Position numbers and translations under genes: made by a program
Shown: positions 36,476-64,000 of the stretch, one piece after another
Layout of the letters: every line of letters begins with the position of its first letter
How positions within the stretch are numbered: the first letter of the stretch is position 1
NCBI RefSeq assembly: GCF_002005145.1
Contig: NZ_CP019698.1
Coordinates: 3,100,001 to 3,164,000 of the forward strand
Direction of reading: 5' to 3'
Source: Desulforamulus ferrireducens
Lineage (GTDB): Bacteria > Bacillota > Desulfotomaculia > Desulfotomaculales > Desulfotomaculaceae
DNA: 64,000 nt
The notes under the pieces: model-generated
Told to the model about the DNA's origin: nothing
The model's database searches: none
What the model saw: the letters and a program-made list of their open reading frames with translations, nothing else

Positions 36476-36513
36476 ATAAGTCACCGCCTCTACATGAAAT
36501 GGCATACAAAGAC

Positions 36514-37391: not shown

Positions 37392-37422
37392 TCTTTTTCG
37401 CCTCCATATGTTTTCCACATAA

Positions 37423-40420: not shown

Positions 40421-40474
40421 ATCTCCATATTCTCATGGAAAACTTTGAAAAGCAAGTTATTTTTTGCATATTTT

Positions 40475-43738: not shown

Positions 43739-43856
43739 CCTTTTCTACCTGCCTTTGCTGTTGTCTTGTCAACTCCAGCATAGCAGGTTTGATGGTCAGG
43801 GTGGTCAACTTTTTCTTTAGCATTTTCTTTTCTGGTGGTCAATTTTTATTCTAGCA

Positions 43857-44366
43857 AATACACTCACCCGTCCAACAAACTAGTACCACCAGATTCGGCC
43901 AGTCATTAAACAGTGGCTCCAAGAGATAAAAATTTCCTGCCAAACAACTCTTGTGCTTGCCAACTGGGTTACCCTGTACGGTTTTACACCGCCTCGGGGT
44001 TGGTTGCGGAACTGCTGTAGGTGCAAAAGGAACACGACTGGACAAGTTTGAAAAAAGGTGGTTAGGGTACGATCTGGTTTTGATTAATGAATTAGGGTAT
44101 ATAAGAGGGAGCCGAGTTGTTCTTCCGTTTTGTGGCTTCACGCTATGAACGGGAATCCGTGATGATTACGACAAACCTCGGGTTCGCAGAATGGTCCCAG
44201 GTGTTTGGTGATGAAATGCTTAGTCATATCTTGGTCATGAACAACGAAAGTTATAGATTCTGTGAGAGTATGAGACGCAGGAACGATGACTAACATTGCT
44301 CAATATATGCATCTGGGGTGGTCCCCTATTTCATGACTACATGGTCCCTTTTTGATTGACAAACAC
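43857..44366 (+). mobile_element. Decayed IS21-type remnant
   Basis: The segment next to the intact IS21 holds a broken istB-like sequence and an IS21-type end (plus-strand TTTTTGATTGACAAACA, i.e. TGTTTGTCAATC inward) with GGTCCC repeats before it. It differs from the intact neighbour, so it comes from another IS21-family element. The stretch 44367-44530 shows nothing recognisable apart from T/G-rich sequence. Confidence 0.6.
43964..44293 (+). pseudogene. istB-like pseudogene fragment
   Basis: Read across frames, the plus strand encodes VRFYTASGLVAELL, then pieces like KRWLGYDLVLINELGY (Walker B region), FFRFVASRYERESVMITTNL, FAEWSQVFGDEML and MNNESYRFCESMRRRNDD before a stop. These match the C-terminal two thirds of IstB, but an in-frame stop and several shifts break it. 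The Walker A half is missing. Confidence 0.65.
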
Positions 44367-44530
44367 AGTATCTACTGCATACAACCTAAGATACCAGGGT
44401 TGAAAGTACTTTCCAAATAAGAGAGCGAGGAAAACTATTCCCGAACCTAACAATAAACCGCCTCGAAGTGTGATAGGTTTTTGTTGTTGTAACGGTGGTC
44501 TACTTCACAATTAACATTGCTACTTGTGTT

Positions 44531-45772: not shown

Positions 45773-46083
45773 ACTGTTTCAACCCCAGTAATTTTATTAT
45801 TGTATATTTTGTTGCCGCCCTAGTTACTGTCCCTGATACCAATCTTTAAGCGCTATTTTAAATTACCAATTCATTTTCTCTTAAAAAGGTTAACCCTGCC
45901 ACAAAATAACTTGGTTCATTTGTAAGGTATAACATTTTCATTTACTATCCAAATAATATCTGTGGTATCCCTAAATCTAAAGCTATGAAAAGGCTAATGC
46001 ACGATTAAGTAAACATTTCAAACCAAACAAACACCGGTTGTCACAGGTACTTTTTGATTAGACATTATTCTGAAATTTTAAGA
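45773..46083. other. Gene-free gap
   Basis: I see no gene, clear promoter pair or strong hairpin in this A+T-rich stretch between the glycosyltransferase and the asnB-like gene. It may be debris from the neighbouring insertion events. Confidence 0.5.
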
Positions 46084-47994: not shown

Positions 47995-48119
47995 AGGATA
48001 ACCTCCAAAAATTTAGGTTAAGAAAAATGCCAAGGGGAAAGACCTAGTAACATGACCTTACCTCGTTTTGATGGACACAGTGAATGGCTGGTATAATTAA
48101 CCCAGCGGAGGTGTTCATC

Positions 48120-48404
48120 ATGAAACGTTTTGATAAACAATTTAAATTAGAAGCTGTTGCTATGGTACTTGAGCAAGAACGTTCAGTACCAGTTGTTGCT
48201 AAGGAACTTGGTATCCATGTAAATACTCTTTACAAGTGGATTAACCAATTTGAAAATCATAAGGAAGATGCTTTCCCGGGCAGTGGAAACCTTCTACCAG
48301 AAAACGAGGAAATTAGGCGTTTAAAGAAGATGATTGCTGATCTACAGGAGGAAAACGCCATTCTAAAAAAGGCCACGGCCATCTTTGCAAAACACCAGAA
48401 GTAG
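48120..48404 (+). CDS. IS3 transposase OrfA (HTH protein)
   Basis: A 94-aa DNA-binding OrfA starting at the ATG at 48120, 6 nt after GGAGGTG. The frame extends 12 codons upstream without a ribosome site. HTH ([34 protein letters not shown]) is followed by a leucine-zipper stretch ([20 protein letters not shown]). It ends at TAG 48404. The reading frame of OrfB lies in the -1 frame and is open over the end of orfA. Confidence 0.9.
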
Positions 48405-48442
48405 CTTACAGATTTATTGTTCAGCACCGCTTCAGCTTTCGG

Positions 48443-49264
48443 GTGGAAAAGATGTGCCAAGTGTTTAAGGTCTCCCGAAGCGGATTTTATGCCTGGCTCA
48501 AAAGAGAAGAAAGTAGCCGAGCAAAACAAAATAAAGAGCTGCTGAAGGAAATCCATAATGTGTATAAACTTTCCCGAGGTACTTACGGTAGCCCGAGGGT
48601 AACTAAAGCACTTAAGAACCAAGGTATTACTTGCAGTAGAAACAGGGTAGCCCGTTTGATGCGGGATTATGGTATCTTTGCCAAAACCAAAAGGAGATAC
48701 AAGGCTACCACTAATTCAAAGCACAGTTATCCGGTAGCCCCGAACCTACTGAATCAAAACTTTTCAGCTAACCAACCAAATCAGGTCTGGGTAGCCGATA
48801 TTACATACATCCCTACTGATGAAGGTTGGCTTTATCTGGCAGCCATCAAGGATTTGTATAATAGGAAGATTGTAGGGTGGGCTATGGATAAAACAATGAC
48901 TCGTCAGTTAGTATTGGATGCCCTTAACCAAGCAGTAATGAGATATCGCCCCTTAGCAGGTCTAATACACCATTCGGATCGTGGCAGTCAGTACGCCAGT
49001 TATGAGTATCAACAAGCATTAAGGGGTTATGGGATAATTACAAGCATGAGCCGTAAAGGCAATTGCTACGATAATGCAAGTATGGAATCTTTTTTTGGGA
49101 CCATTAAGCGAGAACTAATTTATGGTAGCCGATATAGAACCAGAGCAGAAGCACGGCATGCAATTTTTGAGTACATCGAAGTATTCTACAATCGAATACG
49201 CCTACATTCATCACTAGGTTACATGTCTCCGGTAGAATACGAGCAAGCCAAAAACGCTGCATAA
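48443..49264 (+). CDS. IS3 transposase OrfB (DDE integrase-type)
   Basis: A 273-aa catalytic transposase with the DDE residues in [28 protein letters not shown] and [15 protein letters not shown]. The N-terminal HTH_21 region is [19 protein letters not shown]. The first ATG is at 48443, but the same frame is open back across the orfA end near 48390 (GCAAAAC). A -1 frameshift there would make the OrfAB fusion, the active form in IS3 elements. Confidence 0.93.
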
Positions 49265-49353: not shown

Positions 49354-50661
49354 TTATTCAAACAACATAACTTCTCTAATAAGAAATCTTGGTTGGCCAA
49401 AAGTATCATGGACTACTATTTTTATCATGTTTGTTTTTATTTCCTTCTCACTTACGTATTCAAAAATATGTTCCGAGGTAAAATTCGAACAATTCTTCCT
49501 CTCTACCAAAACTTTATATTTATCCTGTTGCTGGTCATAATATTCAATAGAAAAATTTTTCCCACTATTCTCTAAGGATTCCCAAAAGATTTTAAGACGA
49601 TAGAATTGTTGTTGTTTATCAAACTTTATTTCTATAACCTGGGGAAATCCATAAGAATTTGGAACTGCATAAGTTTTTATATCGCCATCAAAAGCTTTAT
49701 CTAATTCATAATTAGTTAGATAGTTTACATTAGATAATATTTCCGTGCCTTCTCCTATTATTTTATGGTCTCTATTATCTATATCATAATAATAAAGTAT
49801 TGAAGATGCGTTTTTAAAAAATAAAGGACTCATATAAGAGTTACTTTTATCAAAATTTCCTACTACTGTTTTTGATAGTTCTGGATTGTCTATCATTTCT
49901 TGTATACTATAGTTGTAATATACATTAAATGTTGGATCAAATGTATACCACTTCCCATCTATCTTAACTTCGACTCTGCTATGGTTAGCATTCTTAAAAG
50001 TACTAGTTACTCCTACAATTCTAGCTTCAATTCCTTTCTTTGCTAATTCTCTCATCATTAAATAACAAAAATCTCCACAGTGACCCTCTCCGTAGGAAAT
50101 AAGTTCTTTAGCTGGTACTTGCCCGCCCAGTCCTTTACCATATTTTAATAGTCCATTTACAAATTTATTTATACTTATCACATCTTCAATTGAAACAGAA
50201 TTCACCCGTTCCGAAATAATTATTTTGTCTTCATGCCAATGTACTTTATAGCCTAAAGCCTCTGCAATATACCTAGCTGGAAGATATACTCGTCCTGTTT
50301 TTTTACTATATTCAGTTTCTACATCAATATCTCTTGTCTCACCATTAATACTTATTTGCTTTTTGCCTACTTTAATTTCTATTTGAATATTTTCATGGTT
50401 AATATTTATGATCTGGTTTTCGGGATGCCAATTAACATTATTCTCCGATACCCCCAATGAATAGGCTAGAATTCTAAGCGGAACAAAAACTCTTCCCTCA
50501 CTAATATATGGTGTTGTATCCATAGTGTAACTAATATTATTAATTTTATATTCATTGTTTCCAATAGTAAATGATACGCATTTAGTTGTCTCGGCTTTAG
50601 CAATTGGCTGTTGAAAAAAAAAACAAAGAGCAAATATAATAGATGTTATTATTATTCTCAT
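49354..50661 (-). CDS. Exported stalk-domain/transglutaminase-like/discoidin-like protein
   Basis: A 435-aa secreted protein. A signal peptide (~1-23) is followed by two stalk repeats (VFVPLRILAYSLGVSENNVNW, VYLPARYIAEALGYKVHW). Residues ~155-260 form a transglutaminase-like cysteine-protease fold with a plausible triad Cys195 (GEGHCGDFCY), His227 (NHSRVEV) and Asp242 (WYTFDPTF). The C-terminal ~140 residues (LDKAFDGDIKTYAVP..YRLKIFWESLENSGKNFSIEYYDQ) look like a galactose-binding/discoidin-type beta sandwich. Substrate is unknown; cross-linking or cleavage of a surface polymer or protein is possible. It lies 16 bp after the broken asnB-like gene. Confidence 0.75.
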   Translation of the reverse strand: MRIIITSIIFALCFFFQQPIAKAETTKCVSFTIGNNEYKINNISYTMDTTPYISEGRVFVPLRILAYSLGVSENNVNWHPENQIININHENIQIEIKVGKKQISINGETRDIDVETEYSKKTGRVYLPARYIAEALGYKVHWHEDKIIISERVNSVSIEDVISINKFVNGLLKYGKGLGGQVPAKELISYGEGHCGDFCYLMMRELAKKGIEARIVGVTSTFKNANHSRVEVKIDGKWYTFDPTFNVYYNYSIQEMIDNPELSKTVVGNFDKSNSYMSPLFFKNASSILYYYDIDNRDHKIIGEGTEILSNVNYLTNYELDKAFDGDIKTYAVPNSYGFPQVIEIKFDKQQQFYRLKIFWESLENSGKNFSIEYYDQQQDKYKVLVERKNCSNFTSEHIFEYVSEKEIKTNMIKIVVHDTFGQPRFLIREVMLFE

Positions 50662-50677: not shown

Positions 50678-52303
50678 CTAAAAAATTTTAAAAGCTCTTA
50701 TCCATGCCCCTAAACTCCAAATAGCCCATGTAACTCGTTTGTTGATTAATTCTTGACTCTCGCTAAGGATCTCATGTACTGGCTTTATAAATAAGCCCGT
50801 TTTATCCAATAACATAAAATCTTTATGTATTAGATCAGCTAGTTCCTTATCAAAAAGTTCCGTTGCTGGATACATAGTACCTGATTTAGACGGGTTAGCA
50901 GATACCATTCTAGGAAGCACAGGTTCCATTGCTTTCCTTATCATTCCCTTTAGTCCATCCCTAAGTAGAAAAGCCTCAGGTACTTGCCCTGCAAATTCAA
51001 CAACTTTCCTGTCGAGGAGTGGTGTTCTTGATTCCAGATTTTCAATCATTGATGTTCTATCTTCAACATGCAGTAAACCTGGAAGCAATACCTTAGCGTC
51101 AAGGTAAAGTAGTTTTTTCAGATATCCAGTTGTTCTGTTGGAGCACATATTTAAGAGTGAGTCTGATACACTGTAGTCTCCTACCGCACTACGAAATTCT
51201 GGATTTACATATTGCCATAATTCTTCAGTTCTGAAGAAAAGGCTCTTAATTATTTGTTTCTCATCGCCAAATACACTTTTCCCTAGAATCTGTCTTGCTT
51301 GTCTTTCAAAACCTACTAGATATTTAATATTACTACTATTAACTACCCTATTGCTGCCGCTTATGCTATCACTAATCTCTTTACTTAATACCGCGGCAAT
51401 ATATTTAGGATAACCACAAAAGAGCTCATCCCCCCCGTGTCCTGTCAGGACAACACGGGTATGCTGTCGAACTATTTTTGACATAATTCGGTAAGGTGCT
51501 GAATATCCTGCAATTGGCATATCTAGAACATATAAAAGGTCATCATGTGCCTTTATAATCTCTTCTTTAGGTAATATAACCCGGTGATGTTCTGAGCCAA
51601 TATGTTTTGCTACAGCATCGGAATAAGGACGTTCATCTTGGAACCTAGCTTCGGGAAAAATACTTGAAAAAGTATGTAAATTGGCTTGCACTTTTTTATT
51701 TAAAAATTGCTTAGCAATGGTGGCCACAGAAGAACTATCGAGTCCCCCACTTACATACGCTGATATAGGTACATCTGCACGGCACCAAAGCTTAACTGCT
51801 TCAAATATACGTTCTCTTAAATTAAGAATTGCCTCATCATAGTCTAGTTTTGCTTCTTCTTGTGGTAAATCCCAATAAACATGCTCAACAATCGTATAGT
51901 TTGCTAAATCCACAGAAAGAAACGCCCCGGGTCTGATCGACTTTACACCCTTAAAAAGGGTATGGTTCTGCGTGTATAATTGAATGTGAATATAATCACA
52001 CAGGCCAAATGGGTCTATCTCAGCAGACACAGCACCTGATTTTATTAATGCTTTAATCTCACTGGCAAAAGTAATAGAAGAAGTATTTACGTGATAATAT
52101 AAGGGTTTTATACCCAGACGATCCCTTACTAAATATAACTTATTCTTTGTGAAATCAACCAAGGCAAAGGCAAACATGCCATCGATTTTGTCCAAAAAAT
52201 CTAAGCCAAAGGCCTGATAGCTTTTGAGAAGCACTTCAGTATCAGAGTTTGTTTCAAACATATAACCTAATTCTAATAGTTGCTTTTGCAGCTCTAAGTA
52301 ATT
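50678..52303 (-). pseudogene. Asparagine synthase-like gene, C-terminal part (split by IS)
   Basis: This is the 3' part of an AsnB-type amidotransferase gene cut by the element at 52304-53812. From Asn-Tyr-Leu-Glu (NYLELQKQLLELGYMFETN) it encodes 541 aa with an intact frame, the PPi loop VSGGLDSSSVATIAK and LPGLLHVEDRTSMIENLESRTPLLDRK. It lacks the N-terminal 79 residues with the nucleophile Cys. Joined to the 5' piece after removing the element and one AATT copy it gives exactly 620 codons plus a stop in frame. A start codon created by the element's end (52369) adds 22 foreign residues, but such a product would lack glutaminase activity. Confidence 0.92.
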
Positions 52304-53812
52304 GAGCCTTTTGCAATTTTGTAATCCCGTAAATACCAAGGTTTCTAGGAGCATAAAAAAGGACTTCACCCCAAATACGGAGAATTTTCCAAGTGACCAA
52401 ACCCGAAAAATCCATAAAAGGAAGTGAAGTCACTTTGTATATTCTCCAACAAAACCTATTTTCCTTTGAACAATGGTTGGAAATTGAATCAGAATACCGG
52501 CTAGAACCTTTTTTTAGTGTATTGGACTTACGTCCGTATTCTCAAGCGCTTTGCTCTGATACGAAACGGGGAAGAAAGCCCGAGAACCGAGAGGCTATTC
52601 TTAGAGCGCTCCTCGTAGCACCTTTCGAAAATATCTCAGAATTCACCGCCCTTCGAGATCGCCTGGTCAGCGATATTCGTTTTCGGTATCAGTGTGGTTT
52701 CGAACTCGCTAAGCGGGTTCCTTCAATCTCTACATTCAGTCGGGTATTTGGTCAGATTATGGAAAAAGAAATAGCCCAAAAGTTATTTAATGACTTAGTA
52801 CAACAGTGTTTAGACGAAAAGATTATAGTGGCTGATACCATTGCAATTGACAGTACGGCAATTGATGCTTATGAGAAAAAGCAACCCAAGTCTAAAAGCC
52901 AAGAAACAGGTAATGCAACTTGGGGAGCCAAATACGATACGTTTAGAAACAAAATTACCTGGTTTGGCTACAAGATTCATTTAGCTGTTGATACATCAAG
53001 CGAATTACCTATAGCCCTTGAGGTTACGCCTGCAAATATTAATGACGGCGATATGGGGCCTACGCTGATTGAGAAAGTAGCGGCACAAATCCCTGAAGGA
53101 AGGTTAAAATATGTCATTGAGGATTCAGGCTACGATCAACAAAAGAACTATGAAGCTGCGAAAGCCCAGAGAGCGCAGGCAATTATCCCTTTAAACTTAA
53201 GGAATGCCCAGGAACCACCGGAAGGGTTTTCATTTAATGGAACTCCCAAGTGCTCTATGGGTTATGAAATGGTATATTGGGGTTGCGATAAAAACTTCCT
53301 TAAGTTTCGATGTCCACATGCACTGGGTAAAGTGGATTGTCCCAATGGAATGGCTTGGTGCTCCTCTTCAAACTATGGGATGGTTGTAAAGATAAACGTA
53401 AAGGACGATCTAAGGCGTTTTTCCCTGCCCCATAGAGGAACTAAGCGATGGGAAGAGCTATATGACAAAAGAACTTCTGTGGAACGTTGCAATTCTAGGC
53501 TTAAGGAGAATCTTACTGCGAATGACCTCCATATAAGGGGAATTAAAAAGGTTACGGCATATATTTACCTTAATGCCATAGTGCTATTAGCAACGGCTTT
53601 AGCATCCAAAAAAATAAACTGCTCACCCCAACAAAAAGTAGCTTAAAGCACTTAAAAAATCGGGTCGATCCAAAAATTCTGTACGTCTAACCATTCATTT
53701 GGAATAAAATGTAAATAGGGTTAGGGACAGGTCATTTTTTAATAAAAACCAAACAAAAGTGTCTTTAGATTGCCTTGTTTTTTTAAAAAAAAGCCAATTA
53801 TGCAAAAGGCTC
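52304..53812 (+). mobile_element. IS1182-type insertion sequence with AATT duplication
   Basis: A 1509-bp element bounded by the inverted repeat GAGCCTTTTGCA / TGCAAAAGGCTC. It is flanked by the 4-bp direct repeat AATT (52300-52303 and 53813-53816). One intact transposase gene lies on the plus strand, opposite to the interrupted host gene. Palindromic 4-bp duplications suit the IS1182 group; that family name is by protein appearance and is less certain than the boundaries. Confidence 0.9.
52393..53646 (+). CDS. Transposase, IS1182-type DDE
   Basis: A 417-aa transposase. The N-terminal DUF772-like region (EAILRALLVAPFENISEFTALRDRL..DIRFRYQCGF) is followed by a DDE core with TIAIDSTAIDAYEK, IEDSGYDQQKNYEAAK and RTSVERCNSRLKENL (Glu), plus YLNAIVLLATALA at the C-terminus. 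It begins with GTG at 52393, 89 bp inside the element. It is uninterrupted, so the element may be active. Confidence 0.88.
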   Translation: MTKPEKSIKGSEVTLYILQQNLFSFEQWLEIESEYRLEPFFSVLDLRPYSQALCSDTKRGRKPENREAILRALLVAPFENISEFTALRDRLVSDIRFRYQCGFELAKRVPSISTFSRVFGQIMEKEIAQKLFNDLVQQCLDEKIIVADTIAIDSTAIDAYEKKQPKSKSQETGNATWGAKYDTFRNKITWFGYKIHLAVDTSSELPIALEVTPANINDGDMGPTLIEKVAAQIPEGRLKYVIEDSGYDQQKNYEAAKAQRAQAIIPLNLRNAQEPPEGFSFNGTPKCSMGYEMVYWGCDKNFLKFRCPHALGKVDCPNGMAWCSSSNYGMVVKINVKDDLRRFSLPHRGTKRWEELYDKRTSVERCNSRLKENLTANDLHIRGIKKVTAYIYLNAIVLLATALASKKINCSPQQKVA

Positions 53813-54053
53813 AATTAAATATTTCCCCATTAAATACAATGCCAATTTTTTTTCCTGTTGTAAACATTGGCTGGTTACCAGAAGGGGTTAAGTCAATTAT
53901 CGACAGCCTACGGTGTACTAATCCTACGTTCTTATCATGGTAGTACCCTGAATTATCTCTACCCCTATGTTCAATTGCATTTCCTATAGATTCTAAAATT
54001 TTTCTAGCAACCGTTTTGCCGTCAAACCTAACTTGTCCACCAATACCGCACAT
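53813..54053 (-). pseudogene. Asparagine synthase-like gene, N-terminal part (split by IS)
   Basis: The 5' part of the same amidotransferase gene, 80 residues. It starts MCGIGGQVRFDG (nucleophile Cys2) and contains IEHRGRDNSGYYHDKN and IGIVFNGEIFN. The last codon AAT runs into a TGA formed at the element edge. The ribosome site AGGAG precedes the ATG at 54053, only 9 nt from the end of the PIG-L gene, so it belonged to that operon. Confidence 0.92.
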
Positions 54054-54062: not shown

Positions 54063-54707
54063 CTATAAAAATAATCTAATTACTTCAAAACACTCAGCAA
54101 AAACTGCATTAGCTTGTACTCCTCTTACCCGGGCCAAGGATTCAAAAAACTGTGTATTAGAATAGTTACGGTGTAACTGGGATTTATAACAAGAAGAAGC
54201 TTTTAACTTTTTTTCCATGTGGTCATTATTAACAATCACAAGGCAGTCATGATTCATCGTCAATGTATTCCAAGGCAACTCATAGCCCAAAATACTTGTA
54301 TGCTTAAACGCACGAACCGTCTCCTCATAAATACAGTGATGGTCCTGATGAATGTCATTGCTATTTGGAGTAAATACCAATGCTGGATTAATCTCTTTTT
54401 TTAGCTTAATTAATACTTCTAATATGTCTTGCCTTACAGAGGGAAAATATCGTACAGGAAATTCAAAATTACCACAATTTTCAAGCCTTATCCCTAATAT
54501 CTTACGACTGGAATTGCATTCTTCTTTTAATTGGTTAATTGGAAGTCCGATATCACGTAGACTCTGTTCACATAAAGAAAAATAATAATGATATACCTTA
54601 ACCCCAGATTCCACCAGTTTATTTATTGTTGCCCCACAACCCAGCTCGTCGTCTGGGTGAGCACCTAACACTAAGGCTGGCCTGTTATCAACTAATCTCT
54701 CTAGCAC
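54063..54707 (-). CDS. PIG-L family N-acetylglucosaminyl deacetylase-like protein
   Basis: A 214-aa zinc-dependent LmbE/PIG-L family enzyme that removes N-acetyl groups from GlcNAc-type substrates. The metal motif AHPDDELGCG stands near residue 17, and the second ligand motif is HQDHH near ~120 (PNSNDIHQDHHCIYEE). The start is GTG behind AGGGGG. In this operon it probably de-acetylates an amino sugar so that another group, perhaps formyl, can be added. It lies 15 bp after wecB. Confidence 0.9.
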   Translation of the reverse strand: MLERLVDNRPALVLGAHPDDELGCGATINKLVESGVKVYHYYFSLCEQSLRDIGLPINQLKEECNSSRKILGIRLENCGNFEFPVRYFPSVRQDILEVLIKLKKEINPALVFTPNSNDIHQDHHCIYEETVRAFKHTSILGYELPWNTLTMNHDCLVIVNNDHMEKKLKASSCYKSQLHRNYSNTQFFESLARVRGVQANAVFAECFEVIRLFL

Positions 54708-54722
54708 GTTAATTCCCCCTAT

Positions 54723-55832
54723 TTATTTAAACCATCCATGGTTCTCTAGTAAGTCTACTATTTTGCTAGCAGCATTACCATCCCCAAATAAATTCGGTCT
54801 CCTATTTGTTGGCATATATGAACTTATAAGTTCTATCACTCTGTTAACATCAATACCGTTATTATCCCAGCAACACTTCTGCCAGCCACATGATTGTATT
54901 TGAGGCCAGGGGGTAGTATGGAATAATACTAATACAGGTTTTCCTGCAAAGAATGCTTCCTTCTGAAGTCCACCAGAATCAGTTAATACAATTTTCGCGT
55001 TATTAATTAACTCTAGAATGTCCAGGTAGCCTACTGCAGGTATAACTTTGGCATGGTTAATTGCTTTCAAGCTTTCCCAAAGTCCATGCCTTTTAAAAGC
55101 TGCTTCTGTACGGGGGTGAACCGGAAATACAATCTTCATCTTTGCATTTTCCAATACTTTTATAACCCTTTTAAGAGCATCTTCTGTATCGGTATTATTG
55201 GGCCTGTGGATGGTTAATAAAGCATATTCATTTGTATTAAGATTTAATGAATTAATAATTGTAGACTTTTCTCTTGCAACCTTTGAAAATATCAAATAAG
55301 AATCAAACATTACATCCCCGGTGAAATAAACACCGTTTAGAATGTTTTCTTTTGCCAAATTTTGAACTGAAACAATATCTGGGCAAAATCTTAATTTGGC
55401 AGCATGGTCTGCCACAATTCTATTAATCTCTTCTGGGGTATTAATGTCGTATATTCTAGGTCCTGCTTCTACGTGAGCTATAGGTATATGTAATTTCACT
55501 GCTGCAAGTGCAGCTGCAAGAGTACTGTTCGTATCTCCATAAATAATAACACCACTTGGCTTTTTCTCTTGCAATATTATTTCTAATTCCATTAACATTA
55601 AAGCAGTCATCTTTCCATGACTGCCGGTACCAAGGCTAAGACTTAAGTTAGGTTGGGGAATATTTAGTTCATCAAAAAAAACTTTACTCATATTATCATC
55701 AAAATGCTGCCCTGTATGAATAATATATTCTTTATATCCCCTTTTAGAGATTTCTGCAGAAACAGGAGCCATTTTAATAAATTGAGGCCTGTTACCTACT
55801 ATTGTGATTACTAGATTTTCCTTGTTAATCAC
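54723..55832 (-). CDS. wecB: UDP-N-acetylglucosamine 2-epimerase, non-hydrolysing
   Basis: WecB/MnaA (369 aa) interconverts UDP-GlcNAc and UDP-ManNAc. Visible motifs are VGNRPQFIKMAPVSAEI, HTGQHFDDNMSKVFFDEL, YGDTNSTLAAALAAVKLHIPIAHVEAGPRIYD and VFPVHPRTEAAFKRHG, then LTDSGGLQKEAFFAGKPVLVLF. The start is GTG after AAGGAG. It may be a variant acting on another UDP-sugar such as a deoxy-amino sugar, since it lies in a decorated-glycan operon. It would also supply UDP-ManNAc for the TagA-type transferase. Confidence 0.93.
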   Translation of the reverse strand: MINKENLVITIVGNRPQFIKMAPVSAEISKRGYKEYIIHTGQHFDDNMSKVFFDELNIPQPNLSLSLGTGSHGKMTALMLMELEIILQEKKPSGVIIYGDTNSTLAAALAAVKLHIPIAHVEAGPRIYDINTPEEINRIVADHAAKLRFCPDIVSVQNLAKENILNGVYFTGDVMFDSYLIFSKVAREKSTIINSLNLNTNEYALLTIHRPNNTDTEDALKRVIKVLENAKMKIVFPVHPRTEAAFKRHGLWESLKAINHAKVIPAVGYLDILELINNAKIVLTDSGGLQKEAFFAGKPVLVLFHTTPWPQIQSCGWQKCCWDNNGIDVNRVIELISSYMPTNRRPNLFGDGNAASKIVDLLENHGWFK

Positions 55833-55845
55833 ATTATCGCTCCTT

Positions 55846-56724
55846 TTATCGGTTCTGTTTTTCTAATAAAAGTTTTTTTAATTCTTTGTCATTAACTTCT
55901 GGTCCCAGGTATAGATTGATTAGTCCATCTTTACATGGAAAAGAAACGATCTCTGTATAGTCTTTACATTCCTCGATTCCATGTACTGGTCTTATTTCTC
56001 CATTATATATTATATAAGGTCTTGGCCAAGGCGGACATTGTGCCCGTAGTATATCTTTAACCTGTTTTTTAGAAAAGGATGTATCGATTAAGCCATGAAT
56101 CATCCTTCTTGGAGGGTATACCTTTCCTTTAGTTAAGTCCGGCGATTCTTTGGTAATCTGTCCATTAATAAAATTATGCCATAATATCTTAAATAGCTGG
56201 ATACCCTTAGAGAATATTTTATCCCTAACCTCCAGTGCAGTTTCGGTTTCTTCTACAGGAACAGTATCTTTTATCAATATATCACCAGAATCCACTTCTT
56301 CTTCCATCACATGCCAAGTTACTCCAATTTCCCTTTCCCCATTTGCTATAGCCCATTGTAGAACATTTGCACCTCTATACTCGGGGATTTTTCCTCCGTG
56401 CATATTCCAAATACCAAGCTCAAATATCCTTAGTGTAGATACTTTTATAATTTGAGAATAGTTCCATGATATGCCCAAATTTACCCCTTTATTTACTAAT
56501 GTTCTTTCAAATTCTTCTAACCCCTCAGTATATGGTTGCTCTATACATGGAATATTTAATTTTTCAGCCATCCTGATAACAGACTTAATTTTTTCAGTAT
56601 TCTTTCGGTTACGTGGATAAATGATCACAACAACCTCGGACAGATTCTTTATCTGACATATCTCGATAATATTCGCCGCTGAATCACTGGTAGTAAATAG
56701 TGCAATTTTATATTTTAAAGTCAT
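55846..56724 (-). CDS. Formyltransferase-domain protein (sugar N-formyltransferase-like)
   Basis: A 292-aa protein of the methionyl-tRNA formyltransferase fold that uses N10-formyltetrahydrofolate. The catalytic triad is visible as Asn and His in WNMHGGKIPEYRGANVLQWA and Asp in EEVDSGDILIKDTV. The C-terminal ~80 residues (MIHGLIDTSFSKKQVKDILRAQCPPWPRPYI..) resemble the tail of sugar N-formyltransferases rather than the tRNA-binding domain. With PIG-L nearby, N-formylation of an amino sugar is a good inference. It lies 13 bp after wecB's start. Confidence 0.83.
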   Translation of the reverse strand: MTLKYKIALFTTSDSAANIIEICQIKNLSEVVVIIYPRNRKNTEKIKSVIRMAEKLNIPCIEQPYTEGLEEFERTLVNKGVNLGISWNYSQIIKVSTLRIFELGIWNMHGGKIPEYRGANVLQWAIANGEREIGVTWHVMEEEVDSGDILIKDTVPVEETETALEVRDKIFSKGIQLFKILWHNFINGQITKESPDLTKGKVYPPRRMIHGLIDTSFSKKQVKDILRAQCPPWPRPYIIYNGEIRPVHGIEECKDYTEIVSFPCKDGLINLYLGPEVNDKELKKLLLEKQNR

Positions 56725-56748
56725 TTTTCATACCTCTTTATATCACAT

Positions 56749-57423
56749 CTATTTATTTAAGAGGATATCCCTAGACTTTTCTCCACAGTTAAATAACATA
56801 TCAATAATAGACAACCCAGGGATTGATTCACCCCATAATTGAGAATAAAGAGGGGGGGTAAAATCGTAATATTGAAATCCAAGTCCCTTACTTAGAAACT
56901 TATTTTCATCCTGGTACTTTGCCCCACCTCTACCAGAAAGGTACGAAGTACCCCCAATTTTGAGTATGATGTCTATTAGCCGGTCGTCTCCGGTCTGATT
57001 AGACCCTATTTCGGAAGATAGTACAAATTGACAAGGAACCTCTAGCCACTTTGCAATAACTTTCAATAAATTAATGTTAAGCTCGGCTAAATTACTTACT
57101 GGTTCAGTAAGCTTAGCAAAAAGTTCTTCTCTATACTTATTGTAATAAGGTGCTTTAGCATAATTACCGTCTAAGGTTTTGATGTGTTTAATTTGCCAAT
57201 CCTTTTTAGCAAAAGTGACTTCATTTATTTTATCTTTCATTGAAGCTTTAACTGGTACAGTAAGCCAAGATGCTCCATTTGGTGTCTTAATTCTATTCCT
57301 ATTAATAAAACTGTTCTTAGAATATTGAACGTCATCCAAGAAAACAAAAATATCACAAAAGAACATCTTATAGAAATAACCGGACCAAGGAAAGTAATTT
57401 GGTTGATGTATTGCTACACGCAC
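56749..57423 (-). CDS. WbqC-like family protein
   Basis: A 224-aa protein of the WbqC family. Typical marks are MRVAIHQPNYFPWSGYFYKM, FLDDVQYSKNSFINRNRIKT, WLTVPVK and TSYLSGRGGAKYQDENKF...G. WbqC proteins recur in O-antigen and surface-glycan clusters and are thought to take part in sugar modification, perhaps acyl or amino group transfer; the reaction is not established. The start is GTG behind GGAGG. It lies 10 bp after the glycosyltransferase gene, in the same operon. Confidence 0.85.
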   Translation of the reverse strand: MRVAIHQPNYFPWSGYFYKMFFCDIFVFLDDVQYSKNSFINRNRIKTPNGASWLTVPVKASMKDKINEVTFAKKDWQIKHIKTLDGNYAKAPYYNKYREELFAKLTEPVSNLAELNINLLKVIAKWLEVPCQFVLSSEIGSNQTGDDRLIDIILKIGGTSYLSGRGGAKYQDENKFLSKGLGFQYYDFTPPLYSQLWGESIPGLSIIDMLFNCGEKSRDILLNK

Positions 57424-57433
57424 AATGTACCTC

Positions 57434-59182
57434 CTATTGACTCACAAGTTTATTCAGCATTTTTATAAAGTACACTTTCTGGCTATCATAACCAAACTTT
57501 GACCCAATCTTTAAATATTGTTCTTTTACCATGTCCAAAACATTGTCTTTTAGTGCTCTACATATTGCTGTTCCAAGTTCTTCCGGATCTGAGCAATTTA
57601 CACAAAAACCAATATTATTGTTAGTTACAATATTCGCAACTTCCATAAGTGTGCCGTCACATAGAATTGGTATTTGCGCGGCATAGTATTCTAAAAATTT
57701 ATTTGGAACACTAAGAGCATAATAACTATTTAAACTTTTGTACGGAAGAATGCCTAAATGTGCATTTATTGTATATTCTAATAGCTTATTTTGAGGTACC
57801 CAACCTGCATAACGTACTTTTTCGGGGTTACCTTCTTTCTTTACTATTCTTTCAAATTCCTCCTGATATGGCCCTGCACCTACTACTACCAGATAACAAT
57901 CATTTGTTAGATATTTAGTTGCTTTTGCAAGATTATCAAGATTACGTAATGTGGTTAAGCTACCTTGAAATACTGAAATCCTCGCATCTTCCGGCAACCC
58001 AAATTCTGACTGCCAAAAATCACTTCTTCTATTAATAATATTTTCATGGTCTTTTGTAATGCAAGAGTAAATTACTTCAAACTTCTTGCCAAAGTACTCG
58101 GACATCTTTTCCGCTAGAAGCTGTCCTACTGTTATTCTCAAGTCGCAGATTTGATAAAACAATCGCTCATATTTATCCATTGCATTTATGCGAATACTGT
58201 TTTGAGGTTCCCAAAGTATGCTCTGTTCTTTCCACCACTCATGACAATCCACAATTAGTTTGCATTTAAAACTATCTTTTAGCATATACCCGATTGGTAA
58301 GGTAGGTAAATCTGCTACATAAACAATATCAGGTGATTGATTTGGATAATCGTTAATCTCCTGCTTTACTCGTTCCAATATTGGTGAATAATCAAATATA
58401 ATTTGGCGAAATTCAATAAAATCATAGGTATTTCCCATAAATTCATCCTTACTAATAGCTCGCAAAGGAATCCTTTTTTTCAGTATTACCGTTTCATTTC
58501 CGCTTTCATATTCATAAATGTCAGTTTCATCAACTTTTTTAACCTTAATAATAATTGACTCACCACTATGGGTCATACATTTTTCAATATCTGAATTCTG
58601 ACATTCCATATCAAGCAAATGCCCAAAAGGGACTAAAGAGTTATTAAATATTTTTTCCCTTTTTACCTTATATACCATATCATCTAACATATTAATTTGT
58701 TCAATGCTTTCTTTCTTAAGACTTCTAACTTTACCAATTAAATTATTATATACATACCATTCTCCGTTATAATTCTTTACTGCCATACTAAACCATTTTT
58801 GCGATCCAGCAATAAAGTAATAATCCAAGTCACTTGTAAATCCCGCCTTCTCCAGTTCCTCACAACTGGTGGGGTACCGTTCAAAATTAGCTTTGTACCC
58901 TTCAATGAAACTAATAAACTCTACAAAAAAATTATTTACATCGGGATCAGGGGTTTCACCAATTTGAAAAAGTTCCCTGTCTTTGTAGCATTTTATTGTT
59001 TTTTTCACTTCCGGTCTGCACACATAGTCAGGGTCAGAATTATCCAGCGCATCATTTGAGTAAGACGAAAAAAGTAATACCTTATATCCTAACTCTCTAA
59101 AAACATCCGCAAAAAAGAAAATCCTTCTATCTATATGATTATCATGGGTTAAGAGCCAAGCAATTCTCTGTATTATACCCAC
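57434..59182 (-). CDS. Long GT4-type glycosyltransferase with internal insertion
   Basis: A 582-aa GT-B transferase. The N-terminal half starts IQRIAWLLTHDNHIDRRIFFF. The C-terminal half has FQGSLTTLRNLDNLAKATKYL, VRYAGWVPQNKLLEYT and LSVPNKFLEYYAAQIPILCDG of GT4 enzymes. It is about 200 residues longer than usual. The extra part (~75-235, rich in Lys, Asp and Tyr) resembles a small mixed alpha/beta domain of unknown kind. Its GTG start overlaps the upstream gene by 10 bp. Donor and acceptor are unknown. Confidence 0.82.
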   Translation of the reverse strand: MGIIQRIAWLLTHDNHIDRRIFFFADVFRELGYKVLLFSSYSNDALDNSDPDYVCRPEVKKTIKCYKDRELFQIGETPDPDVNNFFVEFISFIEGYKANFERYPTSCEELEKAGFTSDLDYYFIAGSQKWFSMAVKNYNGEWYVYNNLIGKVRSLKKESIEQINMLDDMVYKVKREKIFNNSLVPFGHLLDMECQNSDIEKCMTHSGESIIIKVKKVDETDIYEYESGNETVILKKRIPLRAISKDEFMGNTYDFIEFRQIIFDYSPILERVKQEINDYPNQSPDIVYVADLPTLPIGYMLKDSFKCKLIVDCHEWWKEQSILWEPQNSIRINAMDKYERLFYQICDLRITVGQLLAEKMSEYFGKKFEVIYSCITKDHENIINRRSDFWQSEFGLPEDARISVFQGSLTTLRNLDNLAKATKYLTNDCYLVVVGAGPYQEEFERIVKKEGNPEKVRYAGWVPQNKLLEYTINAHLGILPYKSLNSYYALSVPNKFLEYYAAQIPILCDGTLMEVANIVTNNNIGFCVNCSDPEELGTAICRALKDNVLDMVKEQYLKIGSKFGYDSQKVYFIKMLNKLVSQ

Positions 59183-62100
59183 CCCCTTAGTTTTAGTTTA
59201 TGGTATATTCTTCTCAAACGAAGGAGATCACCTATAGATATTAAAAGAGGATACCTCTTGATAAGAATAATTAACCTCTTGCATATCTGTTTAATTATCC
59301 TTATTAAACGAGCCCTAAAGTTATCCTTATTCTTAATAGTAAAATTACTCTTATGAGGGATAACCTTCTCTTCTAATAAATTTATAAATTCCATAGCATT
59401 TTGCAACTGATTATCTAACATAAGATTCTTTTGTTCATATTCCAATCTTAGGTTATTAATTTTATCTTCGAGTACAATAATACACTGGAGAGCATCGTGA
59501 AGTTGTGCCTCTAATTGCTGTGTCTTCCCCAACAATTCTAGTTCTATAGATTCCTTGTTCCCAACATTTCCATGGTCATGTAAATTAATAGAAGGTATTC
59601 CTATATTTCCTTCGACTTCTGATTGTATAAGTTTATTTTTCTCAACCTCTATTCTCTTTAAATGAAGCTCTTTCTCTAAAAAGGAAATTTGTTTCATTAA
59701 AAACTTAATATGTTGAAATAAAATGTTATTGTAGTCTTCTTTTGGAGATTCATCAGCATGAGCTTTTTCTATCCATTGATCTAATTCTTCAGAAAAAAAT
59801 GCTAGGTTATCATAGGGCAGTGCCCATCTATACAATATGCCGTCCTTAGTTTTTTCAATATGTGAAAACTCACTAATAAAACTACCCTGGAATGTATAGA
59901 ACAACCTATTTGGGTTATTGTTAGAAACCTCTACTGAGTATAAGTTCAACTCAGAACCACCGCACCATATTATTCTAATAAAACCTTTAGCTTTTTCCAT
60001 TTCAGGAGGAATAATTATTTCTAGAAAAAAATCATTATGCACTAAGTTAACAGAAATTACAAATTCATTGTCTCCAGAAGAATAACCCAAAAAAGTTAGC
60101 TCTAGTTTATCGGAAGCATATCCCTTTACCTTTATAGTATCTCCACAATTTAATATCATTGGAAAGGCCATGGAAATTGATGCATTTTTCGCTAATTCAG
60201 ATTTAACAATTCTAATTTTATTAGTTTCTCTTATTACCGCAACCTGATGTGGAATTAAAATAGGGATTTGCTCAAAGGATGAGTAGCTATTACTTTCAAC
60301 AAAAGGCTTACTAAAATCAAGAATATTCTCTTGTATTACAATTGGCTTAGGAATTGCTTTAGCTTGCCCGCTTCTAGTACGTACGACCGGTTCAATATCT
60401 TTTAAAGGTTCTCCATCAAACTCAAATAAAATCCCTACTTCTGAGTACCTTGGAGTAAGTCTGCTACTAAATCTGGTAATTTCCTTAAATACTTGGTCAT
60501 TATGAGTTTCGTTAATTCCTTTTAATGTATGTCCGCAAGAAGCGCAATTTATGCCATCAGTGGAAAGATTAGATTGGCCTAAACTTTCTTTTAACCCGTA
60601 ATAATTAGGGGGAATATCAAAATATATAATATCACCCGTAAAGTTCACTGTTTTGGGAACCCATTTAGATGATAAAAGGTTAAACAAACGTTTTAGTGTA
60701 AAACTTTGCTTGTGATGATTTACATGCCATACGTTTTCGCAATTTGGGCATTTTATTTGTCCAGCTGCAAGACTTTCTGAAAAGGGAACTTGCAAGTAAA
60801 TATACTTTCTACTTACACGTTCCAACTCAGATATTGCCTTATGAATATCATCATCGGTTAGATGTTCAATTACATCGCAAGCCATTGCTAAATCAACACA
60901 TTTATCCTCAAGGGGTATATTTGTAATATCTCCCAAACACTTTGGTTTTGTAATTGGTAAAATAATCTCCTCATCAATATCCATACATAAAACTTTATGG
61001 AAAGGAGGTATTCTTCTGGACATTAATCCAGGACCACAGCCAATATCAAGTATCGTCTCAGCATCATTAGGTAGAACGCTTAAGAATGACATTATAGCCG
61101 TATCAATTGATGTTGCACCTAAGTTTTGGTTTGAAAAAATGTTTGTATATGTTGCAATCTCATCTTGGTTTTTAGAGTTCGTTTTAAACACTCCCTCTTT
61201 TAGTGACCATTTAAGATCTGCAAATAATCTATCCCATTCTTCATCCATTGATTTTACAATTTTGCCAAGTCCTGTTATTAATGCACCATCAGAGCTTGCA
61301 CGTTCTAGCATATACTCTAGTGGCTTAAAATGATTTGGGAAACTGGGATTGTCAATGACATGAACATGCCAATCTAATGTAATAATTCCACCGTTCATTT
61401 GAATATTATCAAATATTAGATCAATATTTTCCTTTCCTTTCCCTTCCCAAAACAAGTAGCTATTAGGGTCAAAAAAATGCTGATCTAAACAAGTAGTTGA
61501 TATAGTCCATAACTTTCGTTCAAAGCCGTCTGGGTCAGGAAATGGCACCGGAATATTTGTTCCGTTACGATTACCTGGAGTGTCAGGATATCCTAGGGAA
61601 GCATCGTATAAAAATCCTGCTCGTAACTGTTGACCCCAAGAACGTGGGTAAGCAAACCTATAATAGTGGCTCCTATGCCCATAAATTAGTCTTCCGGCTG
61701 TTTTTTCTAACCTCTCCTTTTGTTTCATTAACAACTCATAATCATCGTGTGCTAGATAACTGGAGTGGAGCCCGATCTCACTATCACTATCCCACAATGA
61801 TTTTAAAGAAGGGTCCTCAAGATTATATTCTGGGTCATAGATAGTTAATTCATCCTTGTCCGTTGCCATTACCATAAATGTCGGTTGTATAACTTGCCAT
61901 CTTTTTAAAAACTCAATAACTTTCTGTGGCTGTCCGGGAAAAAAACCGTCAACATCAAAAGTTAGTGCAACAATATAGGGCACCTTAGGATTAATTTCCC
62001 TAACAGAAATACCAAACAAATCCCCCAAAAGCCTGGCTGCATGGGCAATTAAATCAACAAATAAATGCTTCTGCCCCTGCATTGCTCTACTAGATTTTGA

Positions 62101-62499
62101 ACCTATAAATAATCCATACCTATCTCTAAAAAGATTTTCTGTTTCTTCAACTAAGTTGACATAATTAATTATGGGCGTAAAGATGTCCTCAGTAATAAAA
62201 TATTTTTCACCAATTTGCCTAATCCGAATTGCATTAGTAGAACTAACTAGATAAGTTTTGTTTTTAAATGTAAATTCCATTATTTTAGTGTCATTTTTCT
62301 TATTGTTTTCATTTCTTGGGCAAAATAAGGTTTTATTTTCACATGTTACTTGTAGACCATCGTATTCTCCAGAACTAAAAGCAATATGTTTTTTTAGCAA
62401 AAAACCAATGATCCGCCAGACATTTCTATCGATCGGTTTTATTGGATTATTAGTTTGTACACATATGCGGCCATTTGGCTTACTTTGCATAAAAACCAT
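59173..62499 (-). CDS. Polysaccharide deacetylase-like/SAM methyltransferase/coiled-coil fusion
   Basis: An unusually large 1108-aa cytoplasmic-looking protein with no signal peptide. Residues ~175-410 form a NodB-like deacetylase of the DUF7033-associated kind (ALTFDVDGFFPGQ, GLHSSYLAHDDYELLMKQKE, GHRSHYYRFAYPRSW). Residues ~475-650 form a class I methyltransferase with the SAM motif TILDIGCGPGLMSRRI (~483) and DVIEHLTDDDIHKAI. Two Cys pairs (CPNC, CASC) lie after it. A beta-rich region follows (~700-910), then coiled coil (~935-1065) and a basic C-terminus. The gene overlaps neighbours on both sides (20 bp and 10 bp). A glycan-chain modifying or length-setting role, as for WbdD-like coiled-coil methyltransferases, is possible but unproven. 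Confidence 0.78.
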   Translation of the reverse strand: MVFMQSKPNGRICVQTNNPIKPIDRNVWRIIGFLLKKHIAFSSGEYDGLQVTCENKTLFCPRNENNKKNDTKIMEFTFKNKTYLVSSTNAIRIRQIGEKYFITEDIFTPIINYVNLVEETENLFRDRYGLFIGSKSSRAMQGQKHLFVDLIAHAARLLGDLFGISVREINPKVPYIVALTFDVDGFFPGQPQKVIEFLKRWQVIQPTFMVMATDKDELTIYDPEYNLEDPSLKSLWDSDSEIGLHSSYLAHDDYELLMKQKERLEKTAGRLIYGHRSHYYRFAYPRSWGQQLRAGFLYDASLGYPDTPGNRNGTNIPVPFPDPDGFERKLWTISTTCLDQHFFDPNSYLFWEGKGKENIDLIFDNIQMNGGIITLDWHVHVIDNPSFPNHFKPLEYMLERASSDGALITGLGKIVKSMDEEWDRLFADLKWSLKEGVFKTNSKNQDEIATYTNIFSNQNLGATSIDTAIMSFLSVLPNDAETILDIGCGPGLMSRRIPPFHKVLCMDIDEEIILPITKPKCLGDITNIPLEDKCVDLAMACDVIEHLTDDDIHKAISELERVSRKYIYLQVPFSESLAAGQIKCPNCENVWHVNHHKQSFTLKRLFNLLSSKWVPKTVNFTGDIIYFDIPPNYYGLKESLGQSNLSTDGINCASCGHTLKGINETHNDQVFKEITRFSSRLTPRYSEVGILFEFDGEPLKDIEPVVRTRSGQAKAIPKPIVIQENILDFSKPFVESNSYSSFEQIPILIPHQVAVIRETNKIRIVKSELAKNASISMAFPMILNCGDTIKVKGYASDKLELTFLGYSSGDNEFVISVNLVHNDFFLEIIIPPEMEKAKGFIRIIWCGGSELNLYSVEVSNNNPNRLFYTFQGSFISEFSHIEKTKDGILYRWALPYDNLAFFSEELDQWIEKAHADESPKEDYNNILFQHIKFLMKQISFLEKELHLKRIEVEKNKLIQSEVEGNIGIPSINLHDHGNVGNKESIELELLGKTQQLEAQLHDALQCIIVLEDKINNLRLEYEQKNLMLDNQLQNAMEFINLLEEKVIPHKSNFTIKNKDNFRARLIRIIKQICKRLIILIKRYPLLISIGDLLRLRRIYHKLKLRGWV

Positions 62500-63262
62500 A
62501 CTCTCCTTTTAACAATCTAGCTTTAAGCTCCCTTTGTATAGCTAGAGGCATTGCCGGTTCTAGACCTTTGTCACTACGAGTTCCTTTATAAACCTTACCC
62601 TCCCATATCCTTTGGATATTAGGTGCAAACCCTTCATGCATGATCTTTAGCAAAGAATACACAGCTAATTCAGCGGACGCATTCATAGCCTTAAGGTCTA
62701 TCTCTTCCAGAGTGTCCCCTAGGTTAATTTCATAATGCATTCTTTCAATAATCGGCCCCTCATCAATCCACGGGGTAACTACATGTGCACTAACTATTGG
62801 AGGCTCATCATTATAGAGAGCAAACCTTGTTGTCCAGTTTCCTCTATATTGCGGTAGGGGCGCTGCATGTATGTTCATAACACATAGCCTTGGCATATAA
62901 ATTATTGGCCCTCGAATAATGGGTCCTTCAGTAATAATAAGGATATCAATAGGATTTGCAGCTATAATATCTCTTGGTTGACGTCCATTGTGACTCGGAA
63001 CTGTTAGAAAAGGTATGCTTTCTTGACTGCAAACTGCACCAAGAGAGAATTCCCCTTCTTCCTCCTCTATTGCCCAATCTGATAAGTTTTGTTTTGGTAC
63101 AGGTAATTTCTGTGAATCAATAAAAACTGAGGAAACAGCAAGACTTCTTGGCTCATTATGTTCAATAATTACATATTTCGGTATAAGATTAAATGAAATC
63201 AATCTTTTGATCATAGCGACAGCATATTTACTTTTATTTATTCCAATCAGCGCAAAATCCAC
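62480..63262 (-). CDS. Formyltransferase-fold protein, second copy
   Basis: A 260-aa formyltransferase-domain protein. The Asn-His pair is in VMNIHAAPLPQYRGNWTTRF and the acidic residue in TPWIDEGPIIERMHYEI, where most relatives have D-S-G. The N-terminal ~95 residues are diverged from the usual folate-binding start (MDFALIGINKSKYAVAMIKRL). It starts at GTG behind AGGGGA and overlaps the fusion gene by 20 bp. It probably formylates an amino sugar different from that of the other copy; the diverged loop leaves this open. Confidence 0.7.
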   Translation of the reverse strand: MDFALIGINKSKYAVAMIKRLISFNLIPKYVIIEHNEPRSLAVSSVFIDSQKLPVPKQNLSDWAIEEEEGEFSLGAVCSQESIPFLTVPSHNGRQPRDIIAANPIDILIITEGPIIRGPIIYMPRLCVMNIHAAPLPQYRGNWTTRFALYNDEPPIVSAHVVTPWIDEGPIIERMHYEINLGDTLEEIDLKAMNASAELAVYSLLKIMHEGFAPNIQRIWEGKVYKGTRSDKGLEPAMPLAIQRELKARLLKGEYGFYAK

Positions 63263-63295
63263 TCTATTATCCCCTATCCTAGAATTACATTTACC

Positions 63296-64000
63296 TTAAC
63301 TTGACTTGTAATGATCTGTAGGGTCATAAGTCAAATATATATCTTTATATTGCCACGTACAGGAATGAGCAAATGCCCCCAACCCTTTCTTAATGCTTTC
63401 GGGCTGAGTTACCTTAAAGAACACCGCACGATCAACAACACAATACGATTCGTTTTCGCGTTCCACATTAAGGTCATAGTGTTTAAAAACACCTATACTA
63501 ACCATGTATTCACCTGAACCAATTCTTAATGGTTGATAGGCAGCATATATAGTTTCGCTACCTACTATCTCGTTAATACCTAAGTCTGAACTTTTACAAT
63601 AAACTTGTCCAATAGGTTTCCCCTCAGTGCTTAGAATACTTATAACCAGTACAAAAAAGCGGATCTTCTCTTTTGCATATAAATCTATTTTAAATCTCAA
63701 ATCTTCTCCTATAAAAAATAATCTTTTACTTGTGTTATTCTTATCCAAAATATCTACAGATTTTACAATAACTTCTTGAGTTCCGTAGATAGAATTATTT
63801 TCTTTAAATACTTCATATGAATACTCGGTCTTGCGGTTGTTTTCTTCAAGATCTGTATTTTCCACTACCTCAGAAAAATTATTTTCCTTCTCTAATTGTT
63901 GTACATCCTGATTTTCGGATAGATTTTTTCTCTCACCACCAATCCTAGAGATATACGGTGATAGAGAAATATCGAAAAAATCTTGACTGCTGTCAAGCGT
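63296..64000 (-). CDS. Wzt-like C-terminal glycan-binding domain (partial, runs off the edge)
   Basis: The frame is open to the right edge. From the ATG-less boundary it runs over TLDSSQDFFDISLSPYISRI and a linker to a ~150-aa beta-sandwich domain (VIVKSVDILDKNNTSKRLFF, LRFKIDLYAKEKIRFFVLVI, GSGEYMVSIGVFKHYD). The domain ends in VVDRAVFFKVTQPESIKKGL. This resembles the C-terminal O-antigen-binding domain of Wzt, the ATPase of Wzm/Wzt glycan exporters. The ATPase half would lie beyond 64000 and cannot be checked. An internal GTG (63865) could start a shorter protein. Confidence 0.65.
   Translation of the reverse strand, partial: TLDSSQDFFDISLSPYISRIGGERKNLSENQDVQQLEKENNFSEVVENTDLEENNRKTEYSYEVFKENNSIYGTQEVIVKSVDILDKNNTSKRLFFIGEDLRFKIDLYAKEKIRFFVLVISILSTEGKPIGQVYCKSSDLGINEIVGSETIYAAYQPLRIGSGEYMVSIGVFKHYDLNVERENESYCVVDRAVFFKVTQPESIKKGLGAFAHSCTWQYKDIYLTYDPTDHYKSS

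Follow-up and report, generated by a model that had tools for sequence, protein, structure and literature searches.

A Low-G+C Operon of Desulforamulus ferrireducens with Predicted Functions for an ABC-Exported, Formylated Diamino-Uronic Acid Surface Polysaccharide

Operon Structure and Gene Content

Analysis of a 64,000-nucleotide stretch of Desulforamulus ferrireducens DNA (the window; C1:3100001-3164000 of a single-contig genome of 3.24 Mb) identified, at positions 54063-64000, the downstream half of an operon that extends upstream to C1:3173790. The operon comprises 15 genes on the same strand over about 20 kb, and it probably makes a polyprenol-linked, capped surface polysaccharide of 2,3-diamino-uronic acids with formylation, exported by an ATP-binding cassette (ABC) transporter in a Gram-positive-type sulfate reducer. 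The intergenic gaps range from -29 to +33 bp, a Shine-Dalgarno-like sequence precedes most of the gene starts, and the ligase gene is preceded by a 227-bp gap that contains a hairpin. The G+C content of the operon is 35.0%, compared with 49.3 and 47.9% in the flanks. Reading downstream, and with the numbering of the window continued past its end, the operon contains:

71487-73790, minus strand, Wzy_C-TPR ligase (upstream of the window)
70145-71515, minus strand, WbpA (upstream of the window)
68946-70121, minus strand, WbpE (upstream of the window)
67409-68962, minus strand, WbpB-WbpD fusion, 517 aa
66059-67381, minus strand, initiating phosphosugar transferase (PGT; Bac_transf)
65245-66042, minus strand, Wzm, adjoining Wzt
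63296-65215 (C1:3163296-3165215), minus strand, Wzt, 639 aa; the C-terminal part with Wzt_C lies in the window (63296-64000)
62480-63262, minus strand, FT2, formyltransferase-fold protein (Formyl_trans_N), 260 aa, N-x-H...D intact
59173-62499, minus strand, deacetylase-methyltransferase fusion, 1108 aa
57434-59182, minus strand, long GT4 glycosyltransferase, 582 aa
56749-57423, minus strand, WbqC family protein (E = 2.8e-72)
55846-56724, minus strand, FT1, formyltransferase (Formyl_trans_N) of the Fmt/ArnA/WbkC branch, N-x-H...D intact
54723-55832, minus strand, putative WbpI-type UDP-2,3-diacetamido-glucuronic acid 2-epimerase (Epimerase_2)
54063-54707, minus strand, PIG-L-type deacetylase, AHPDDE intact
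about 53811-54053, minus strand, asnB1 5' part (glutamine amidotransferase half), cut by an insertion sequence (IS)
52304-53812, plus strand, DDE-transposase IS inside asnB1
50678-52303, minus strand, asnB1 3' part

An earlier note on this DNA had listed two formyltransferase-fold genes, a PIG-L gene, a WbqC-like gene, a long GT4 and a deacetylase-methyltransferase fusion, all of which were confirmed on one strand with tight spacing. The Wzt-like C-terminal domain that it placed at the head of the operon is present as the terminal portion of a full-length Wzt, and the operon runs on upstream. The check past position 64000 for Wzm and the Wzt ATPase revealed the complete 639-aa Wzt and the adjoining Wzm, as well as the PGT, the Wzy_C-TPR ligase, WbpA, WbpE and WbpB-WbpD. 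The reading frames of the 14 genes upstream of asnB1 are open, with the catalytic motifs retained where checked. A collection of unrelated gene fragments was dropped as a reading, given the co-directional, overlapping genes and their common low G+C content.

Of eight searched genomes of the same genus, none had the extended Wzt; across the order, it was found in only 3 of 113 genomes, the present genome counted. Horizontal gain is the simplest reading of the origin of the operon.

Sugar Pathway and the Identity of the Epimerase

WbpA is a UDP-sugar dehydrogenase with a GGxCxPxD motif. WbpB (3-dehydrogenase) and WbpD (N-acetyltransferase) are fused, and the best match of the LbH half is 3MQG (E = 6.8e-61). 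WbpE belongs to the DegT family (E = 4.6e-104), and its role as the 3-aminotransferase is predicted from sequence.

The epimerase of the window was compared with known structures. It matched 8SXV, a UDP-2,3-diacetamido-glucuronic acid (UDP-GlcNAc3NAcA) 2-epimerase, with 312 bits, the Methanocaldococcus enzyme 4NEQ with 263 bits and Escherichia coli WecB with 149 bits. The substrate classes of the 2-epimerases are told apart by Trp307, Tyr96 and Ala18 versus Arg, His/Gln and Leu/Met (PMC10622841; Thermus thermophilus numbering). In the alignment, the window epimerase has Trp, Tyr and Met at positions 307, 96 and 18, respectively, and Trp is present at position 307 in 19 of the 19 sequences on the WbpI side. 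The second epimerase of the genome (C1:3192304-3193392) has the canonical set of Arg, His and Met. As WbpA, WbpE and WbpB-WbpD are encoded in the operon, 8SXV is the closest structure, the Trp307 and Tyr96 equivalents are present and a canonical epimerase is encoded elsewhere, the gene is best read as a predicted WbpI, the last step of the pathway to UDP-2,3-diacetamido-mannuronic acid (UDP-ManNAc3NAcA). The epimerase gene that the earlier note assigned as WecB is thus present, but it fits the UDP-GlcNAc3NAcA type better than UDP-N-acetylglucosamine (UDP-GlcNAc), and the 2,3-diamino-uronic acid indicated by the upstream Wbp genes and the WbpI-type epimerase had been missed.

The Deacetylase-Methyltransferase Fusion

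The 1108-aa fusion contains the following regions:

residues ~175-410, VimE-like CE4-fold deacetylase
residues ~478-565, methyltransferase
residues 584-587 and 652-655, two CxxC pairs (Zn ribbons)
residues ~740-893, beta-rich region
residues ~921-964 and 979-1046, predicted coiled coil of heptad-rich helices
residues ~1055-1082, basic amphipathic helix (moment 0.75, charge +6)

An AlphaFold model of residues 140-415, built with 38 sequences, had a predicted local distance difference test (pLDDT) score of 80, and its best Foldseek matches were CE4 deacetylases. The domain retains the family-invariant residues, including D-x-D, G-x-H-x-x-Y and R-x-H-Y-x-R. Relatives of the deacetylase were found with a three-sequence alignment, as a seven-sequence alignment was too diverse for scanning; a search of the genome contigs with the fusion as a single query found no relatives. 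Across 66 loci, many of them from Methanosarcina and not independent, the deacetylase relatives lay near WbpE (30), WbpD (26), WbpB (23) and WbpA (20), compared with 13 for GalE and 1 for GalU as controls; these and the other neighbour counts are uncorrected for relatedness or for the way in which the loci were picked.

In six Methanosarcina genomes (L081, L085, L088, L100, L104 and L112), WbpD, WbpE, WbpB and WbpA occur together with a VimE-like deacetylase, contiguously in L081. This suggests that deacetylated diamino-uronic acids may be present in archaeal surface glycans.

A methyltransferase head followed by a coiled coil is the mark of the chain terminators WbdD and ORF6-O7 in ABC-transporter glycan assembly (PMC11231755). 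In two loci from another family of the order, L055 and L056, the protein directly after Wzt has the methyltransferase, all four invariant cysteines and a clearer coiled coil, with no deacetylase; the L055 protein ends in a GT4. In the window operon, FT2 sits between Wzt and the fusion. Because the domain layout and the post-Wzt proteins of L055 and L056 match the published description, we infer by analogy that the fusion is a WbdD-type chain terminator carrying an extra deacetylase, a probable role that the earlier note did not see.

Predicted Formylation, Deacetylation and Amidation

Both formyltransferases retain the Asn-x-His...Asp triad (N107/H109/D145 in FT1 and N130/H132/D167 in FT2), and both fell below the TIGR00460 cut-off for methionyl-tRNA formyltransferase (98 and 34 bits, respectively, vs. 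201.5). No close relative of FT2 was found among 398 genomes of the phylum, where the matches were mostly general members of the formyltransferase superfamily of ~300-340 aa, probably Fmt, by which the FT2 family is not placeable; viral contigs searched with FT2 as a single query contained no relatives. Formyltransferase-fold genes were present in the Wbp loci L057, L058, L160 and L161 (two in L161). The N-formylated sugars foreseen in the earlier note are therefore plausible, as both triads are intact and formyltransferases recur in Wbp glycan clusters, and formylation of the surface glycan by FT1 and FT2 is a plausible prediction. Close relatives of PIG-L (44-48% identity) occur in just 8 other genomes among the 398, with Wbp genes nearby in six of the eight loci, and WbqC adjoins Wbp genes in L057, L129 and L147.

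The IS in asnB1 has the terminal inverted repeat GAGCCTTTTGCA and a 4-bp target duplication (AATT), and the rejoined flanks form one open frame. As the genome contains 11 full, identical copies of its transposase gene and a fragmented one, the insertion is recent. An intact paralogue, AsnB2, lies ~6 kb further on and is 42% identical to the AsnB of the syntenic locus L055. The amidotransferase of the earlier note therefore exists, although outside 54063-64000 and interrupted, and the amidated sugars that it foresaw are uncertain, with the operon copy disrupted and AsnB2 intact.

Export, Acceptor and Cell Envelope

Wzt combines an ABC ATPase, with Walker and signature motifs, and a Wzt_C domain above its cut-off (54.5 vs. 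30.4 bits). The proposed export of a decorated surface glycan by an ABC transporter is well supported, and the complete Wzt and Wzm share the operon with the PGT and the Wzy_C-TPR ligase. The genome contains dsrA above the family cut-off and at least eight SLH-domain proteins, and Omp85 was not found in it. The host is a monoderm Firmicute that reduces sulfate or sulfite and has S-layer-type proteins, so the earlier description as a Gram-positive clostridium was roughly right; a Gram-negative O antigen was dropped on the lack of an Omp85 match. The Wzy_C-TPR architecture has been assigned to the S-layer oligosaccharyltransferases WsfB and PglL (PMC2943079), and the operon ligase matches it. 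Because of this architecture and the SLH proteins, protein O-glycosylation is the likeliest destination predicted for the glycan, with a wall polymer as the main rival.

Related Loci and Known Systems

A search for the gene order in other Firmicutes, as the earlier note had proposed, found related clusters. The core order WbpA-BD-E-Epi-Wzm-Wzt-MT is kept in L055 and L056 (63% identity for WbpBD and 59% for Wzm), and the best analogue, L160, has ligase-PGT-WbpA-E-BD-Epi-GalE-AsnB-Wzm-Wzt-MT-GT-formyltransferase in one run. In similar Firmicute clusters, formyltransferases, AsnB, PIG-L or WbqC accompany Wbp genes, and most parts are present in L055, L056, L160, L161 and L129.

Of the Wbp/Wlb pathway to UDP-ManNAc3NAcA in Pseudomonas aeruginosa, Bordetella and Thermus, the operon encodes the WbpA, WbpB, WbpD and WbpE functions and a predicted counterpart of WbpI. 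The operon differs in the fusion of B and D, its Gram-positive-type setting, the altered active-site wall of the epimerase, and the addition of two formyltransferases, PIG-L and WbqC. The Bordetella wbm locus likewise specifies a 2,3-diacetamido-uronic acid O antigen, according to PMC2279256, but as part of a Gram-negative lipopolysaccharide. The linking-sugar pathway of Porphyromonas gingivalis (Wbp/Vim; PMC7468200) has Wbp enzymes in common with the operon, along with an amidotransferase of the AsnB type and a deacetylase resembling VimE; in the operon, formyltransferases take the place of the aminoacyl transferase (VimA was not found), the deacetylase is fused to a methyltransferase, and there is no type IX secretion setting.

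The fusion resembles WbdD and Klebsiella O7 ORF6 (PMC11231755, PMC3482155) in its methyltransferase head, in the predicted coiled coil and amphipathic helix of its C-terminal part and in its ABC-transporter system, but has a deacetylase in place of the kinase, plus Zn ribbons, and its chain-length role is predicted. The slg S-layer clusters (Geobacillus WsaE/WsaB, Paenibacillus WsfB; PMC2943079) are also Gram-positive, with an initiating PGT, Wzm/Wzt, a multidomain methyltransferase enzyme and a Wzy_C(-TPR) ligase. Their sugars are rhamnose or Gal/ManNAc, whereas diamino-uronic acid with formyl groups is predicted here.

Neighbouring Genes

Two further genes lie downstream of the operon:

46084-47994, minus strand, AsnB2, intact AsnB-type amidotransferase
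44531-45772, minus strand, second GT4 (GT4b), behind IS elements

GT4b probably belongs to the same island. Around AsnB2 and GT4b, at 38591-49264, further transposase genes are densely packed and look IS66-, IS21- and IS3-like. A secreted protein with Cu_amine_oxidN1, transglutaminase and F5/8 C domains is encoded at 49354-50661, 16 bp below asnB1, and is possibly part of the surface island. Directly upstream of the operon, C1:3175183-3177402 (L003:5183-7402) encodes a 739-aa protein, probably secreted, that carries Cu_amine_oxidN1 at its C terminus and may belong to the surface or the S-layer. An outer membrane efflux gene (PF02321, TolC family) is located just upstream of the operon at C1:3174018-3175085 (L003:4018-5085), in a genome without an Omp85 match. 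Two FAD_oxidored (PF12831) proteins are encoded at 24342-26081 and 32957-35014, near cell-envelope genes (pyruvyl transferase, DUF5693, LCP).

Discussion

In the pathway proposed here, WbpA, WbpB-WbpD, WbpE and the WbpI-type epimerase would convert UDP-GlcNAc to UDP-2,3-diacetamido-mannuronic acid or a closely related sugar. Acetyl groups would be stripped by PIG-L and the VimE-like domain, FT1 and FT2 would add formyl to the freed amines, and the carboxylate may be amidated by an AsnB paralogue. The chain would be started on undecaprenyl phosphate by the PGT, and the GT4 enzymes would extend it. The fusion would end it, its coiled coil and membrane helix holding the deacetylase-methyltransferase head off the membrane so that only long chains are capped. 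Wzt would then bind the cap, Wzm would export the chain, and the Wzy_C-TPR ligase would transfer it, most likely to an S-layer-type protein.

Several observations weigh against this reading. The window epimerase has Met at the Ala18 position, and the Arg302/Glu306 pair, kept by every other aligned sequence, is replaced by Phe/Pro; a somewhat different substrate may therefore be expected. The deacetylase domain reached 55.9 bits over residues 222-387, below the VimE (NF053580) cut-off of 440, and is VimE-like only. The AlphaFold model of residues 700-1108, made without an alignment, was poor (pLDDT 43), too poor for a fold search, and its secondary structure alone was used; the coiled-coil score is crude, from a predictor that is not calibrated, and is weaker in the fusion than in the L055 and L056 proteins. 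The last gene of the operon, asnB1, is broken by the IS. AsnB2 (497 bits) and the asnB1 3' part (287 bits) fell below the TIGR03108 (WbpS amidotransferase) cut-off of 817, and amidation of the glycan is therefore possible, not established. No S-layer protein was identified as the glycan target.

Of the alternatives, the one with the greatest weight, although we hold it to be unlikely, is that the fusion is not a terminator, its VimE-like half deacetylating a UDP-sugar and its methyltransferase O-methylating a repeat-unit sugar. For VimE, deacetylation of the UDP-sugar has been proposed, within the Wbp/Vim pathway to a linking sugar (PMC7468200), and in Methanosarcina-type loci (L081), which showed no terminator module, stand-alone deacetylase relatives come immediately after WbpA. 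In L055 and L056, however, the protein after Wzt has the methyltransferase-Zn-beta-coiled-coil part and no deacetylase, and the layout is that of known terminators (PMC11231755). Somewhat less probable is a product of the same sugar pathway and export that is a secondary cell wall polymer, joined to peptidoglycan by LCP-type ligation, in place of a protein-linked S-layer glycan. An LCP protein (35147-36523) and a WecG/TagA transferase (36660-37418) are encoded in the window, and diacetamido-uronic acid wall polymers of Geobacillus stearothermophilus have been published (Schaffer 1999, as referenced in PMC2571106). The LCP and WecG genes, however, lie in 49% G+C DNA, outside the 35% G+C operon, whose own Wzy_C-TPR protein has the architecture of WsfB and PglL (PMC2943079).

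A decaying locus, inactivated by IS insertions and yielding no functional glycan, would account for the split asnB1 and the further transposase genes at 38591-49264, but is improbable given the 14 open upstream genes with their motifs, the recent insertion (11 identical full copies) in the last gene, and the intact AsnB2. Still less credible is an ordinary WecB making N-acetylmannosamine (ManNAc) for a plain ManNAc-uronic acid-type polymer. The epimerase passes the WecB NCBIfam cut-off (283 vs. 210 bits) and keeps the Met typical of UDP-GlcNAc enzymes, but Trp and Tyr occupy the other two diagnostic positions, on which this candidate was dropped; moreover, the match to 8SXV is far better, WbpA/BD/E are encoded in the same operon, and the canonical paralogue is elsewhere in the genome.

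If the fusion is indeed a terminator, a tentative and rather speculative extension is that it represents a new kind, in which the VimE-like domain frees an amine of the terminal diamino-uronic acid, the methyltransferase methylates this amine (or a hydroxyl next to it) and the cap is recognised by the extended Wzt; the product would be a Gram-positive S-layer glycan built from N-formylated diamino-uronic acids. The pairing of deacetylase and methyltransferase seen in the fusion was present in no other locus compared.

Each element has precedent by itself: Gram-positive polymers with Wbp sugars, the slg clusters, deacetylation of the VimE type and chain terminators with a coiled coil. No description of their combination, or of a deacetylase-methyltransferase terminator, was found in the open-access papers searched, which is weak evidence. 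The earlier view that this is not a described pathway thus survives for the full combination alone, and not for its parts, given the Firmicute clusters above and the published Gram-positive diacetamido-uronic acid glycans (PMC2571106, citing Schaffer 1999). If the proposed reading is true, a monoderm would combine chain termination by a coiled-coil protein with the diamino-uronic acid chemistry of the Wbp/Vim type and further decorate the product by formylation, and the operon enzymes would be testable tools for producing rare formylated amino-sugar acids.

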